DNA from: Anaerolineae bacterium
Lineage (GTDB): Bacteria > Chloroflexota > Anaerolineae > Aggregatilineales > J027
Assembly: GCA_019913005.1 (NCBI GenBank)
Contig: JAIOHL010000242.1
Span: 1 to 64,000 of the forward strand
Direction of reading: 5' to 3'
Length of the DNA stretch: 64,000 nucleotides
Position 1 is the first letter of the stretch. Each line of letters begins with the position of its first letter. The notes below the pieces were generated by a model. The model was not told the DNA's origin. It saw only the letters and a list, made by a program, of their open reading frames with translations, and did not search any database. This document shows, piece after piece, positions 57,882-62,405 of this stretch. A program made the translations under genes and the position numbers.

Positions 57882-58859
57882 CTATGCCCCAACCGATATT
57901 TTCCCCTCAGCCAATGCCCTCTCAAATCCCTCAATCGTCTGCCGAATGCCTTCCTCTAAGGGTGTATCATAAACACTAGCGAAATGGCGATGTAGTTCGG
58001 AGCCATCAAAGTTTTCCGGAAATGGCAGCACGCTATCCGACATCGTGATTTTGACGTTGGGACGTAGGCGTTCAATAATTTCCACCACCTGTGCGACAGG
58101 GGTTGGTGGCGCATCCAAGTTAAAAACATAAGCGCCATTCAGTGGGTGGGTTGCCGATTCGATAAATTGTAGGGCCGTATCCGATGCCCATTGAAACTGC
58201 ATCACCCCGCCGAAATTGATATGGAAATTTTGCCCTGCCGCCGCTGCCAGCATCGCTTTGGTGGGGTCGCTGGTTAAGCCTTGGTCGCGCCCCAAGCCAT
58301 AAACAGTATAGGGTCGTAACCCCGTGCTGCAAATTTGATGATCCTGCCAATAAATCCGCGCCGTGCCTTCATTGGCCTGTTTAAAGACGCCATAGAGGGT
58401 GCGCGGTGAGGGATGGGCATCATTGGCGACAGGTTGATTATCGGGATAATCTTCGGCTGGCCCAAAGATCGCGATGGAGGAGGCCAAGGCGATATGTTTT
58501 ACGCCCGTTTGCCGCGCCGCCTCATACACATTCACCGTACCAACTACATTGACCTGCGCTCCTTTGATGGGATTTGCCCGCACAAAGGGGACTTGTAGCG
58601 CCGCTAAATGAATAACATGGGTAATGCCATGCTGTTGAAACGCTGCCAGCACTTGATCGGGGTCGGATAAATCACCGCGCACAAATGTAATGGCCTGCTG
58701 TTCTTCGGGTGTCATCAACAAATTGAGGCGGTGGCCCTGCTCGGCAATATCAAAACTGACCACCCGCCGCCCTTGTTTCACCAGATGATAGACTGTCCAC
58801 GCGCCGATACATCCCAGCGCCCCGGTCACTAAAAATATTTCTTTCGGTTGATCTGCCAT
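57882..58859 (-). CDS. NAD-dependent epimerase/dehydratase (extended SDR)
   Basis: A 325-residue enzyme. The cofactor loop is LVTGALGCIGAWTVYHLVKQ (about 10-29) and the catalytic Tyr-x-x-x-Lys is in TLYGVFKQANEGTARIYW. VTHVIHLAALQVPFVRANP and LRPYTVYGLGRDQGLT are further family marks. The substrate, probably a nucleotide sugar or related sugar, cannot be inferred. It is a single gene behind its own promoter, convergent with the molybdoenzyme gene. Confidence 0.85.
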   Translation of the reverse strand: MADQPKEIFLVTGALGCIGAWTVYHLVKQGRRVVSFDIAEQGHRLNLLMTPEEQQAITFVRGDLSDPDQVLAAFQQHGITHVIHLAALQVPFVRANPIKGAQVNVVGTVNVYEAARQTGVKHIALASSIAIFGPAEDYPDNQPVANDAHPSPRTLYGVFKQANEGTARIYWQDHQICSTGLRPYTVYGLGRDQGLTSDPTKAMLAAAAGQNFHINFGGVMQFQWASDTALQFIESATHPLNGAYVFNLDAPPTPVAQVVEIIERLRPNVKITMSDSVLPFPENFDGSELHRHFASVYDTPLEEGIRQTIEGFERALAEGKISVGA

Positions 58860-58888
58860 AAATCACCCCTAAGTAAAATATGGCTTTA

Positions 58889-58917
58889 ATTGTATAGGGG
58901 ATGGAGAACTGAGCCAA
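58889..58917 (-). promoter_or_regulatory. Candidate promoter of the epimerase gene
   Basis: On the minus strand TTGGCT (58917-58912) and TACAAT (58894-58889) are separated by 17 bp, about 30 bp before the epimerase start. Confidence 0.5.
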
Positions 58918-58961
58918 CATCAGGTACTCTAGCGGGGGCAAATTTTTAAGGGTATGGAACG

Positions 58962-59279
58962 ATGGTTGAACCACAAGCGGAAAACTCCGAGATTGAAATC
59001 ATTTCGCCAGAAGCAGCCGAGGCGATTTTGAAACCAGAGGTCGAAAAACTGGTGCAAGATGGTTGGCGGGTCATGCATGAATCGGCATTTGCGGCGCGGT
59101 TGGTCAAAGAACGCGATTTGATTGATTTACGGGTAGACCTGCTAGGCCAATTAGAACGCAAACAAGGCGTGACGCTGCTCTACGGGCCAGAAATTGGACG
59201 GGCGGTGGCATGGGTGCTGCTGCTAGTTTCCATTTTGATGGCATTGGCATTGGCTTCGGCGTTGGGCTTTTTTAAGTGA
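58962..59279 (+). CDS. Tail-anchored small protein, unknown function
   Basis: A 105-residue protein with a charged, probably helical N-terminal part (about 10-75; EKLVQDGWRVMHESAFAARL, VKERDLIDLRVDLLG) and one C-terminal membrane helix (about 80-101; WVLLLVSILMALALASALGF). It would expose its N-terminal part to the cytoplasm. No family is recognised. It overlaps the convergent methyltransferase gene by 8 bp. Confidence 0.6.
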   Translation: MVEPQAENSEIEIISPEAAEAILKPEVEKLVQDGWRVMHESAFAARLVKERDLIDLRVDLLGQLERKQGVTLLYGPEIGRAVAWVLLLVSILMALALASALGFFK

Positions 59280-59994
59280 CCCGCTGCAAAATGCTATAGC
59301 AGTTTAAATCCCCGCTGCGACCATCAGCTCGATAGGTGGTGATTTCGGTCAATCCGGTGGCGGCAATCAGGGACTGATGTTCGGTGTCATCAATGTAATG
59401 GCAGTAGCGTAGGGCTGGTTTGTCTTCCGCACCTCGATCTCGCCGCCAATCCAGTAAATAATCATGCGCCTCCACTTGAAAATCATCGGGCCATGCCACA
59501 ATCCGTTCACGGAAACGGGGCTGTTCATAAAATCGCCAACCCGTGAACACTAAATAGCCATCTTTTTTGACCCGTTCACCCAAGCGCCGCACAAATTCAT
59601 GCCGATTTTCATAACCGGGGATGTGATGCAGTACCCCAAACGCTACCACGAGGCCATACTCTCCGGTGTCGGGTGGGTTTTCGACAATATCTCGATTTTC
59701 CAGCGTGAAGGATAGACCGCGTTCATCGAATGCTTGTCGTGCAAAATCCAAAAGCGCTGGGGCGTTATCGAGGCCGTGATATGTAATGCCATCGCTGAAT
59801 TGTTCATGCAGAAATAGACCAAAGCGTCCATTCCCACAACCAACATCTAAAACCGAAAGCGGCGCCTTGAGATAAGGCAGTAATTTTAGCCAGCCCTCCC
59901 ACGCATGGTCACGTGATTGGCTAAACGACTCGGCGGTTTGGGTATAAAAATCTTTATTCAGTTGATTTAAGCGTCGGATTAGATTAACATCCAT
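59272..59994 (-). CDS. Trm9/ALKBH8-like tRNA methyltransferase candidate
   Basis: A 240-residue class I SAM methyltransferase. The N terminus FYTQTAESFSQSRDHAWEGW (about 17-36) is followed by motif I VLDVGCGNGRFGLFL (about 48-62), the acidic LDNAPALLDFAR and VAFGVLHHIPGYENR. The C-terminal part has YLLDWRRDRG and LRYCHYIDDTEHQSLIAATG. The N-terminal SFSxSR pattern and the later DW...RYxHxxxxxE order recall eukaryotic Trm9, which methylates cm5U34 to mcm5U34. It is head-to-head with elp3, with 29 bp between starts, which supports this reading. A general methyltransferase is the fallback call. Confidence 0.72.
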   Translation of the reverse strand: MDVNLIRRLNQLNKDFYTQTAESFSQSRDHAWEGWLKLLPYLKAPLSVLDVGCGNGRFGLFLHEQFSDGITYHGLDNAPALLDFARQAFDERGLSFTLENRDIVENPPDTGEYGLVVAFGVLHHIPGYENRHEFVRRLGERVKKDGYLVFTGWRFYEQPRFRERIVAWPDDFQVEAHDYLLDWRRDRGAEDKPALRYCHYIDDTEHQSLIAATGLTEITTYRADGRSGDLNCYSILQRVT

Positions 59995-60023
59995 TCAAAG
60001 AATTCCAATCGGGTTGAACATGC

Positions 60024-61853
60024 ATGACCTACAAAACCGCCCCTAATCTTGATGAACTTGAACTTTACCGCGAATCCCTTTTGGCGATACTGCGGCAGGT
60101 ACTTAACATGCCTGAACTGGCCCAAAAGCAGCTTGAACGCATCCTAAAATCGTACCCCAAAGACGGCTCTGGCCTGTTCCGCCGCGATGAACTGATTCGT
60201 GCCTACCGCCATTTTACTGAGATGGGTGATCTGCCCACCTTCGACAAAACCATCGTGGAGCGCCTGCGCCTTAAACCCGTGCGAACCAGTTCGGGGGTGA
60301 CACCTGTCACCGTTTTGACCAAGCCATTTCCCTGTCCGGGCACGTGTATTTTTTGCCCCAACGATATTCGGATGCCTAAGAGTTATCTTTCGGATGAGCC
60401 GGGGGCGCAGCGAGCCGAAGCCAACGCCTTTGATCCCTATCTACAAACCTACCGCCGCCTGTTGGCCCTCTATAATACTGGACACCCCACCGACAAAATC
60501 GAAATGATTATTTTGGGCGGCACATGGTCATTTTATCCCGAAACCTATCAAATCTGGTTCATCAAACGCATTTTTGACGCGCTACATGATTTTGGTAACG
60601 GGGTAGATCACACGGCAGAAGTGGAAAGCCTGCTGTTGGAACATTCCCAACTGCACCCCGCCCGAAATATCACCACCATCAACATGCCGGGGCATGACCA
60701 GACCTATAACCAAGTCGTCCAGAATATCTATCGGGACGAGATGTATCGCTCCCGCGAACAGGCCCATGCGATTGAATTGGGTTTGACCGAGCGCACGCCC
60801 ATGACCGAATTTGCGACATGGGATGAATTAGAAACGGCTCACCGCGAAAATGAAAACGCTGTATGTCGCTGTGTGGGCTTGGTGATTGAAACCCGCCCTG
60901 ACCATATCAGCGAAGAAGAAGTGCTGCGAATTCGACGCTTGGGCTGTACCAAAGTCCAAATTGGTTTTCAGAGCCTGAATGATGAAGTGCTGCGTCTGAA
61001 CAAACGCGGGCATGAAGTCGCCGCCACCCGCCGTGCTGTCAAATTACTACGCCAAGCCGGATTTAAAATCCACGCCCATTGGATGCCGAATTTGTATGGG
61101 TCGTCGCCGGAGGCGGACATTGAAGATTATGCGCGGATGTTTAATGATCCCGATTTCCGTCCCGATGAACTCAAGGTGTATCCCTGTTCGCTCATCGAAA
61201 GCGCCGAATTGATGGATTACTACCAGCGCGGCGAGTGGCGACCCTATACCCATGAGGAACTATTAGGCGTGCTGACGGCCTGCTTTCAATTGACCCCTGA
61301 TTACTGCCGCTTAACCCGTGTTATCCGCGACATCCCCGGCACAGATATTGTGGTCGGCAACAAAATGACCAACTTCCGCGAACTGGTGCAGCAGGAATTG
61401 GCGCAAAATGGCAGCTATACAGGCGACATCCGCAGTCGTGAAATCCGCCATCGCAACGTCGCGCTCGATAGATTATTTTTGGATGAGGTCTGGTACACCT
61501 CCAATTGCAGTGACGAGGTGTTCCTACAATACATCACCCCCGAACGCCAGATTGCCGGATTTTTGCGCCTATCTCTGCCTACTGAACCGCCAATTACCCC
61601 CGAATTAGAAAATGCCGCTATGATTCGAGAAGTGCATGTTTACGGACAATCCATCGAAATCGGTGAGGCGTTGGCAGGCAAAAGTCAGCACGTCGGGCTA
61701 GGCAAACAGTTGATTGAACGCGCGGTGGAGATTGCACGCGAACGGGGCTATCAACAACTCGCCGTGATTTCCGCGATTGGCACACGGGAATATTATCGCA
61801 AACGTGGATTCGCCGATGGGCAGCTTTATCAACTGCGTGATCTAAGGGAGTAA
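60024..61853 (+). CDS. elp3: tRNA uridine(34) acetyltransferase Elp3 (radical SAM/GNAT)
   Basis: A 609-residue protein of the Elp3 family. A helical N-terminal tRNA-binding region (about 1-85) leads to VRTSSGVTPVTVLTKPFPCP and the radical SAM motif CPGTCIFC (C104, C108, C111). The barrel has IEMIILGGTWSFYPETYQIW, EVESLLLEHSQL and LVIETRPDHISEEEV. Residues about 380-470 form the zinc/linker zone, and the GNAT acetyltransferase is at about 490-605 (HVGLGKQLIERAVEIARERG, REYYRKRGF). Elp3 adds a carboxymethyl group (cm5) to U34 of tRNA. Stand-alone bacterial and archaeal members are known. It is adjacent to the Trm9-like gene. Confidence 0.95.
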   Translation: MTYKTAPNLDELELYRESLLAILRQVLNMPELAQKQLERILKSYPKDGSGLFRRDELIRAYRHFTEMGDLPTFDKTIVERLRLKPVRTSSGVTPVTVLTKPFPCPGTCIFCPNDIRMPKSYLSDEPGAQRAEANAFDPYLQTYRRLLALYNTGHPTDKIEMIILGGTWSFYPETYQIWFIKRIFDALHDFGNGVDHTAEVESLLLEHSQLHPARNITTINMPGHDQTYNQVVQNIYRDEMYRSREQAHAIELGLTERTPMTEFATWDELETAHRENENAVCRCVGLVIETRPDHISEEEVLRIRRLGCTKVQIGFQSLNDEVLRLNKRGHEVAATRRAVKLLRQAGFKIHAHWMPNLYGSSPEADIEDYARMFNDPDFRPDELKVYPCSLIESAELMDYYQRGEWRPYTHEELLGVLTACFQLTPDYCRLTRVIRDIPGTDIVVGNKMTNFRELVQQELAQNGSYTGDIRSREIRHRNVALDRLFLDEVWYTSNCSDEVFLQYITPERQIAGFLRLSLPTEPPITPELENAAMIREVHVYGQSIEIGEALAGKSQHVGLGKQLIERAVEIARERGYQQLAVISAIGTREYYRKRGFADGQLYQLRDLRE

Positions 61854-62405
61854 ATGGATATGCTGCGCCGCAAAGTTTCACCACCGACTGGCCCGCAATT
61901 ACGTCATTCAACAGGTGCGCCCCTCAGCATCACAGATCGCTATTTGGAGCGCGGCCTGCACCACTATCAACACAAAAAATTCGCTGAGGCGCTGGCGGAT
62001 TTGGATGAAGCAATTTACAACGCCTCCGGTCACGCCGAACTATATGTCACACGAGCCGTCATTTTATACGAGATGGAACGCGACGATGACGCAACAGAGG
62101 ATGCCGAATACGCACTGCGGCTCGACCCTCGCCAATGGATTGGGCATTACATTTTGGGCCTGATTGCCATTCGACGCCAGAATTTCCCGCTGGCAGTGGA
62201 ACATTTTTCCCAAGCCCAACGATATGCTCCCACGCGGCCCGAAATCTTCTTCTCGCGGGCAATTGCGTTCCACCAACAAGACGAGATGACATTGGCCTAT
62301 TATGATATGGACAGCGCCCTGCAAGTCATGAAAAGCGATCATAAGCTCCGCAAAGAGGCCAACAAATTTGTCACACAGGTCAAACCCGCCAAAAAGAAAA
62401 AGTAA
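61854..62405 (+). CDS. TPR protein downstream of elp3
   Basis: A 183-residue soluble protein starting at the base after the elp3 stop. Four TPR-like units cover about 27-165 (YLERGLHHYQHKKFAEALAD, ELYVTRAVILYEMERDDDAT, WIGHYILGLIAIRRQNFPLA, PEIFFSRAIAFHQQDEMTLA). The tail is Lys-rich (VTQVKPAKKKK). It probably forms protein contacts; coupling to elp3 suggests a possible partner, but the order may be incidental. No closer family is recognised. Confidence 0.75.
   Translation: MDMLRRKVSPPTGPQLRHSTGAPLSITDRYLERGLHHYQHKKFAEALADLDEAIYNASGHAELYVTRAVILYEMERDDDATEDAEYALRLDPRQWIGHYILGLIAIRRQNFPLAVEHFSQAQRYAPTRPEIFFSRAIAFHQQDEMTLAYYDMDSALQVMKSDHKLRKEANKFVTQVKPAKKKK

Follow-up and report, generated by a model that had tools for sequence, protein, structure and literature searches.

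An Elp3 enzyme and a Trm9-like methyltransferase, encoded head to head in a 64,000-nucleotide stretch of DNA from an Anaerolineae bacterium of the phylum Chloroflexota (GenBank assembly GCA_019913005.1, contig JAIOHL010000242.1, positions 1 to 64,000; hereafter the window), probably constitute a compact bacterial pathway to 5-methoxycarbonylmethyluridine at the wobble position of tRNA (mcm5U34) that would replace MnmE-MnmG chemistry. On its own, with no further Elongator subunit, Elp3 would add a carboxymethyl group to C5 of U34 (from acetyl-CoA, by radical S-adenosylmethionine (SAM) chemistry) to give 5-carboxymethyluridine (cm5U34), and the divergently encoded methyltransferase would transfer the methyl group of SAM onto the cm5U34 carboxylate, with mcm5U34 as the product. 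The pair would thus stand in for the 5-carboxymethylaminomethyluridine/5-methylaminomethyluridine (cmnm5U/mnm5U) wobble chemistry of MnmE-MnmG in Chloroflexota with Elp3; which tRNAs serve as substrates, in what order the two steps run and that mcm5U is formed are inferred. An earlier note, made from the letters of the window, had proposed a two-gene unit for both mcm5U34 steps, and this proposal finds support, having survived the checks of profile identity and of co-occurrence with elp3. The broader proposition, that a two-gene mcm5U34 pathway, Trm112-free in some lineages, is a standing MnmE-MnmG replacement across large parts of two bacterial phyla, is evenly balanced between holding and failing.

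The source genome (7.6 Mb in 365 contigs, 96% complete, the pair being on contig C153 in the numbering used here) carries the two genes as compiled in Table 1. The ORF (open reading frame) coordinates confirm the short distance between the divergent starts that the earlier note had read, and this 29-bp gap suggests joint control. Both genes appear to be under purifying selection, with dN/dS of 0.06-0.10 for the methyltransferase (against four relatives) and 0.09 for Elp3 (against one). The nearest named relatives of the methyltransferase come from four metagenomic Chloroflexi/Anaerolineae genomes, with 84-93% identity across the whole protein and elp3 adjoining each; a sixth locus from the contig scan (L012) gave 28% over residues 42-153 and no Elp3 match.

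Table 1. The elp3-methyltransferase locus in the window
Feature	Position	Strand	Remarks
Trm9-like class I SAM methyltransferase; proposed cm5U34 carboxyl methyltransferase	59272..59994	(-)	240 aa, ATG start
Divergent intergenic stretch between both start codons	59995..60023	none	29 bp
Elp3 (radical SAM + GNAT); proposed cm5U34 synthase	60024..61853	(+)	609 aa, ATG start
Elp3 Fe-S cysteine motif codons, Cys-x3-Cys-x2-Cys	60333..60356	(+)	read in sequence and Elp3 alignment

Distribution of the pair in two phyla

The Chloroflexota sample comprised 201 genomes, the source genome and 200 drawn evenly from the phylum, and only the best candidates per genome were fully scored (6 for Elp3 and MnmG, 13 or 14 for the methyltransferase). 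Elp3 was found above cut-off in 38 of them, across 15 family groups. Its partner comes in two types. The profile of the window type (A1, 21 proteins, including one from a WWE3 genome, L011) scored 228-365 bits in 19 genomes, with no other listed genome above 64 bits; for the profile of what is labelled here the Dehalococcoides type (A2, 18 proteins) the scores were 312-379 bits in 18 genomes and did not exceed 73 bits in the others listed. A comparison of the profiles relates the two types with a probability of 99.7%. Overall, the methyltransferase family is present in 37 of the 38 genomes with Elp3 and in none of the other 163 (Fisher 1e-39, a p value that, like those below, overstates independence, the species being related). 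Among the 25 genomes of the window's own class the respective counts are 19 of 20 and 0 of 5.

The methyltransferase gene is divergent from elp3 and upstream of it in 34 of the 38 genomes (the window's own pair and 33 of the 37 regions fetched), with a gap of 681-1917 bp and one or more genes between in five of the 33 cases; linkage was called from order and strand, since some of the ORFs are too long and run into Elp3, and for L069 it was judged from coordinates. In three genomes (G096, G144, G176) the methyltransferase lies elsewhere, unlinked to elp3, so that the co-occurrence is not mere neighbourhood. As elp3 neighbours were the source of the profiles, a match in a genome with linked elp3 is in part built in, which does not apply to the absences or to the unlinked cases. 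The distance matrices of Elp3 and its partner correlate over 38 pairs with r 0.97, a value reached in 0 of 2000 permutations, and within the two Chloroflexota types with r 0.97 and 0.89 (L069, whose Elp3 is cut by the contig end, is omitted from distance and residue counts); shared species history accounts for part of this correlation.

The WWE3 relative L011 carries the pair in a genome without an MnmG match. Across the WWE3 phylum, an Elp3 match at E 1e-50 is present in 69 of 192 genomes, 67 of them over cut-off, the matches in G316 and G321 being partial and below it. By the earlier profiles, 18 of the 30 Elp3 loci returned hold the methyltransferase, all 18 on the opposite strand and upstream; A1 and the joint profile used in that search include L011, the Dehalococcoides-type profile does not, yet it matches all 18. 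With the joint profile A4 (35 of the 55 proteins then available, among them 14 elp3 neighbours of the WWE3 phylum and L011), at least 110 bits were reached in 51 genomes of this phylum, namely 49 of the 69 with Elp3 versus 2 of the 123 without (G271, G313; Fisher 7e-27), where the 110-bit line was chosen after viewing the list, with no clean gap beneath it (next 104 and 101 bits), and 15 of the 49 are positive by construction (the 14 A4 members and L011). In 43 of these 49 genomes the genes are divergent neighbours, 18-3486 bp apart as measured between matched stretches rather than start codons; in the remaining six they are on other contigs. At L048, whose Elp3 can be aligned over the entire chain with the Dehalococcoides Elp3 crystal structure 5l7j (977 bits), the Trm9-like gene is likewise divergent from elp3, 43 bp away. 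As the same arrangement recurs in two phyla, it is not a matter of chance. The co-occurrence with elp3 in relatives that the earlier note had looked to is thus borne out, and the pair, which it had proposed for this organism, has a wider distribution across Chloroflexota and the WWE3 phylum.

Within Chloroflexota, MnmG was found above cut-off in 79 of the 201 genomes, plus four partial cases, and MnmE in 84. None of the 38 Elp3 genomes has a match to MnmE (0/38) or to MnmG (0/38), versus 87 of the 163 others with either (Fisher 2e-11); the own-class genomes G088 and G136, without Elp3, have both. The rule in this phylum is that Elp3 implies no MnmE-MnmG, not the reverse. Given that MnmE and MnmG were not found in these Elp3 genomes, the pair most likely replaces the usual cmnm5U/mnm5U wobble chemistry. 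In the WWE3 phylum, 118 of the 192 genomes show neither Elp3 nor MnmG, MnmE not having been searched there.

Kinship of the methyltransferase with Trm9

In Pfam the methyltransferase matches the generic models Methyltransf_11, 12, 23, 25 and 31 above their cut-offs. No NCBIfam model reached its cut-off among the 25 of 32 matches listed, and no tRNA U34 enzyme family appeared among the 25 of 56 families listed for 35 members of the methyltransferase family. When the single window protein was compared with PDB sequences by phmmer, the top match was Yarrowia Trm9 (5cm2_Z, E 1.2e-6, residues 47-218), followed by a chain at 4.8e-5. The same chain leads for all four family profiles, at 1.1e-13 for A1 (runner-up 8.8e-13), 6.6e-22 for A2 (2.9e-20), 6.2e-30 for A3, which was built from 16 proteins of the WWE3 phylum after exclusion of the fragments L104 and L108 from 18 loci (1.3e-21), and 9.8e-33 for A4 (3.9e-26). 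Among the alignments printed, only that of Trm9 extends into the C-terminal Arg-Tyr-x-His stretch, and the printed runner-ups stop at profile positions 139-189; judged by coordinates, some chains of lower rank extend a long way in the C-terminal direction as well, such as 3mgg_A (to 201, A2) and 3sm3_A (to 215, A4). Three other methyltransferases encoded in the genome, taken from five weak own-genome matches, served as controls, and Trm9 is absent among the best 60 of their 79, 124 and 95 PDB matches, respectively. No ALKBH8 model turned up in the scans, none of which was aimed at ALKBH8, and the Pfam scan found no AlkB domain in the methyltransferase.

The AlphaFold2 model of the methyltransferase (pLDDT 90.8) matches 1329 chains at E 0.001 in Foldseek, and VIA-align gave a Z of 8 or more for 1000 of the 1000 chains compared, with Trm9 not among the 50 rows listed. 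The fold comparison is therefore not discriminating, and the Trm9 claim rests on the sequence profiles. So common a fold, together with the generic Pfam and NCBIfam matches and the small lead of Trm9 in the window type, would suit a generic class I methyltransferase with a small-molecule, quinone or other RNA substrate, for which the adjacency to elp3 is incidental or regulatory only. This reading is unlikely, and markedly so, in view of the near-perfect co-occurrence with Elp3, which extends to unlinked genes, of the recurrence in two phyla, and of the top rank of Trm9 in four profiles and its absence from the 60 chains listed for each of the three controls.

CmoM likewise forms the methyl ester of a U34 carboxylate, and MnmG makes the precursor used by MnmC/MnmM. 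The methyltransferase might accordingly be CmoM-like or MnmC/MnmM-like and serve another bacterial wobble modification, a reading in whose favour stand the similar chemistry of CmoM, the PDB name of 8joz ('tRNA 5-carboxymethoxyuridine methyltransferase') and the similarity of the CmoM fold to the window methyltransferase model (Z 19.2, rmsd 2.6 over 198 residues). On the other hand, CmoM 8joz is missing from the 56 chains that the window protein matches at E <=0.1, a list headed by Trm9, and from the top 60 chains of each family profile, and the 38 Chloroflexota Elp3 genomes gave no MnmG match, so that this reading must be judged extremely improbable. The earlier note had described the enzyme as Trm9-like and had named a best match to an unrelated methyltransferase family as an outcome that would speak against it; the Yarrowia enzyme came first instead, narrowly for the protein alone and more clearly in the profiles of its relatives.

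In yeast Trm9, mutations at Arg29, His115, Arg241, Tyr243 and Asn271 have strong effects on the affinity for tRNA and on activity (PMC5372719; this and the other papers are cited here from excerpts). Arg28, His124 and Arg196 (window numbering) are invariant in 35 of 35 methyltransferases from three lineages, and His123 is conserved in at least 90%. The stretches around Arg28, His123/His124 and Arg196 align in A4 with xTR, HH and RYY of Yarrowia Trm9, and by the order of these motifs they would be the equivalents of yeast Arg29, His115 and Arg241. The position of Tyr243 is a Tyr in 17 of 17 Dehalococcoides-type proteins, and an Asn near the C-terminus is invariant or nearly so in this type and in the WWE3 phylum.

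Several observations tell against the proposed pathway, in addition to the bounds that candidate scoring and species relatedness set on the counts above. Neither Elp3 nor MnmE/MnmG was seen in 76 of the 201 Chloroflexota genomes, so that Elp3 cannot be concluded from a missing MnmE-MnmG system alone, and in the WWE3 phylum MnmG is present in 5 of 192 genomes, none with Elp3, which is too rare for an exclusion test (p 0.16). A partner was not detected in one of the 38 Chloroflexota Elp3 genomes (G192) and in 20 of the 69 of the WWE3 phylum. In the window type, Trm9 is only slightly ahead of the second PDB chain, a UbiG (54.2 versus 51.3 bits), and the Trm9 claim therefore leans on the other two methyltransferase types; the Foldseek rank of Trm9 is only 11 for the window model and 3 for that of the Dehalococcoides type. 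Furthermore, the position of Tyr243 is Cys198 in the window protein, and all 21 window-type proteins have Cys, Val, Ala or Thr there; the equivalent of Asn271 is not securely placed in this type, where the alignment is uncertain. Since the Tyr243 equivalent is not kept in the window protein, the enzyme is, by its sequence, Trm9-like and not Trm9.

The departure at Tyr243 also counts for a different end product. The methyltransferase could act on the Elp3-modified wobble base and, for example, prime formation of the amide 5-carbamoylmethyluridine (ncm5U), or modify another group, mcm5U being an intermediate or absent. The co-occurrence with Elp3 fits any cm5U-dependent role, this one included, and the route of ncm5U formation is undescribed according to the excerpts of PMC6367351 and PMC7694415, which leaves room for it. 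Conservation of the Arg29, His115 and Arg241 equivalents argues for the same substrate, and esterification would be the simplest reaction of a SAM methyltransferase on cm5U, so that a different product is rather improbable and formation of mcm5U by the pair is preferred.

Elp3, Trm112 and the neighbouring genes

The earlier note had called the Elp3 gene complete, and this was confirmed by a score of 477 bits on NCBIfam TIGR01211 (curated cut-off 350) and by Pfam radical SAM, radical SAM C-terminal and GNAT domains, each above cut-off. For the Dehalococcoides enzyme the residues Lys77, Lys193, Glu386 and Tyr441 are listed in PMC6367351, and their equivalents are kept in nine of nine aligned Elp3 proteins, including that of the window, which in this alignment also retains the Fe-S cysteines. 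The three linker zinc cysteines are replaced in the window Elp3 and in that of L011, and are Cys in L048. These cysteines are described as strictly conserved in bacteria and archaea and missing from eukaryotic Elp3 (PMC6367351); because the eukaryotic proteins also do without them, they are treated here as a subgroup trait and not as a defining one. Compared with the solved prokaryotic structures, the window Elp3 has an N-terminal extension. An insertion of about 75 residues in the radical SAM region (window 60591-60824), relative to solved Elp3 structures, differs in length among relatives. Outside the window's close kin, the Elp3 proteins of the window lineage and of WWE3 are nearest each other (55% identity), both without the linker zinc cysteines; the methyltransferases of the two lineages do not share this mutual nearness. 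There are hints in these sequences of a lateral transfer of Elp3 between the window lineage and WWE3.

The earlier note had seen no Trm112 nearby. This holds for the flanks read, where none was noticed beside the pair, and needs to be amended for the genome, in which a relaxed search gave a weak match on another contig, a 99-aa PF03966 protein at L082:1411-1710 (-) with 22.8 bits against a cut-off of 22. It adjoins a response-regulator-like ORF. The protein is a possible activator of this or of other methyltransferases. At E 1e-3, 28 of the 38 genomes with Elp3 and 87 of the 163 others had a PF03966 match, often in a long ORF other than Trm112, and the source genome had none; as the relaxed search then revealed the weak protein there, absences at this threshold, those of the Dehalococcoides-like genomes included, are unsafe as signs of Trm112 independence.

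The tetratricopeptide repeat (TPR) protein directly after elp3 (61854-62405), which the earlier note had considered as a partner, was rejected as a general one, since among 42 loci its relatives adjoin elp3 only at L007-L010, the window's close kin. On the other side, window positions 57882-59279 hold two ORFs, one resembling a sugar-nucleotide epimerase by eye and the other small, with a hydrophobic stretch near its C-terminus. At L007-L010 the pair is likewise adjoined by ORFs that are comparable in length and order.

Comparison with known wobble pathways

The pathway is already known from eukaryotes and archaea, and Elp3 in 'numerous bacteria' was stated in a paper of 2026 (PMC13315578); what is new is the bacterial Trm9-like partner of Elp3. 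With 38 of 201 Chloroflexota genomes, and 67 of 192 of the WWE3 phylum over cut-off, having Elp3, most Elp3 genomes carry the Trm9-like gene. If the broader proposition of a standing MnmE-MnmG replacement in two phyla holds, a wobble chemistry regarded as eukaryotic-archaeal would be an ordinary bacterial trait. What bacterial Elp3 does can now be tested directly, by mass spectrometry of tRNA from a strain in culture. Moreover, a function is suggested for a methyltransferase family that lacks a curated name, and the pair provides a compact Elp3-Trm9 system to work on. In the open full-text literature searched, with subscription papers and preprints outside its scope, no description of a bacterial Elp3-Trm9 pair or of bacterial mcm5U was found. 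One review, in its excerpted parts, places cm5U and mcm5U in archaea and eukaryotes and lists for bacteria only cmnm5U, mnm5U and 5-aminomethyluridine (nm5U) (PMC7694415); another states that no genes resembling Trm112-dependent methyltransferases are detectable in bacteria (PMC5372719).

The proposed conversion of cm5U34 to mcm5U34 resembles the eukaryotic route, in which Elongator (Elp3) is followed by Trm9-Trm112 or ALKBH8, and the catalytic residues of Elp3 and most of the substrate-binding positions of Trm9 are kept. In contrast to that route, no other Elongator subunits lie nearby and the system consists of two divergent bacterial genes; the window-type methyltransferase does not keep the Tyr243 position, and the window protein has no AlkB domain. 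The bacterial MnmE-MnmG system with MnmC or MnmL/MnmM is also a U34 side-chain pathway that ends in a methyltransferase step, and in this respect the present pair is comparable. It differs in the enzymes and in the side chain, and MnmE and MnmG were not found in the 38 Chloroflexota Elp3 genomes.

In the part of PMC7663514 cited, the Elp3 of Dehalococcoides mccartyi (5l7j) is treated as a lone enzyme, from one bacterial clade named as having Elp3, and direct evidence of U34 derivatives in these bacteria is said to be lacking; its close relative L048 has the divergent Trm9-like gene described above. A parallel to the use of Elp3 without other subunits is archaeal, where Elp3 goes together with a Trm9 orthologue and Trm112 in Sulfolobus and Haloferax. 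Clustering of putative elp3 and trm9 genes was reported for Sulfolobus solfataricus (PMC5372719), mcm5U34 for Haloferax (PMC7663514), and formation of cm5U34 from U34 by archaeal Elp3 was demonstrated in vitro (PMC7663514, PMC7694415). The pair described here differs from this archaeal Elp3-Trm9 system in being bacterial.

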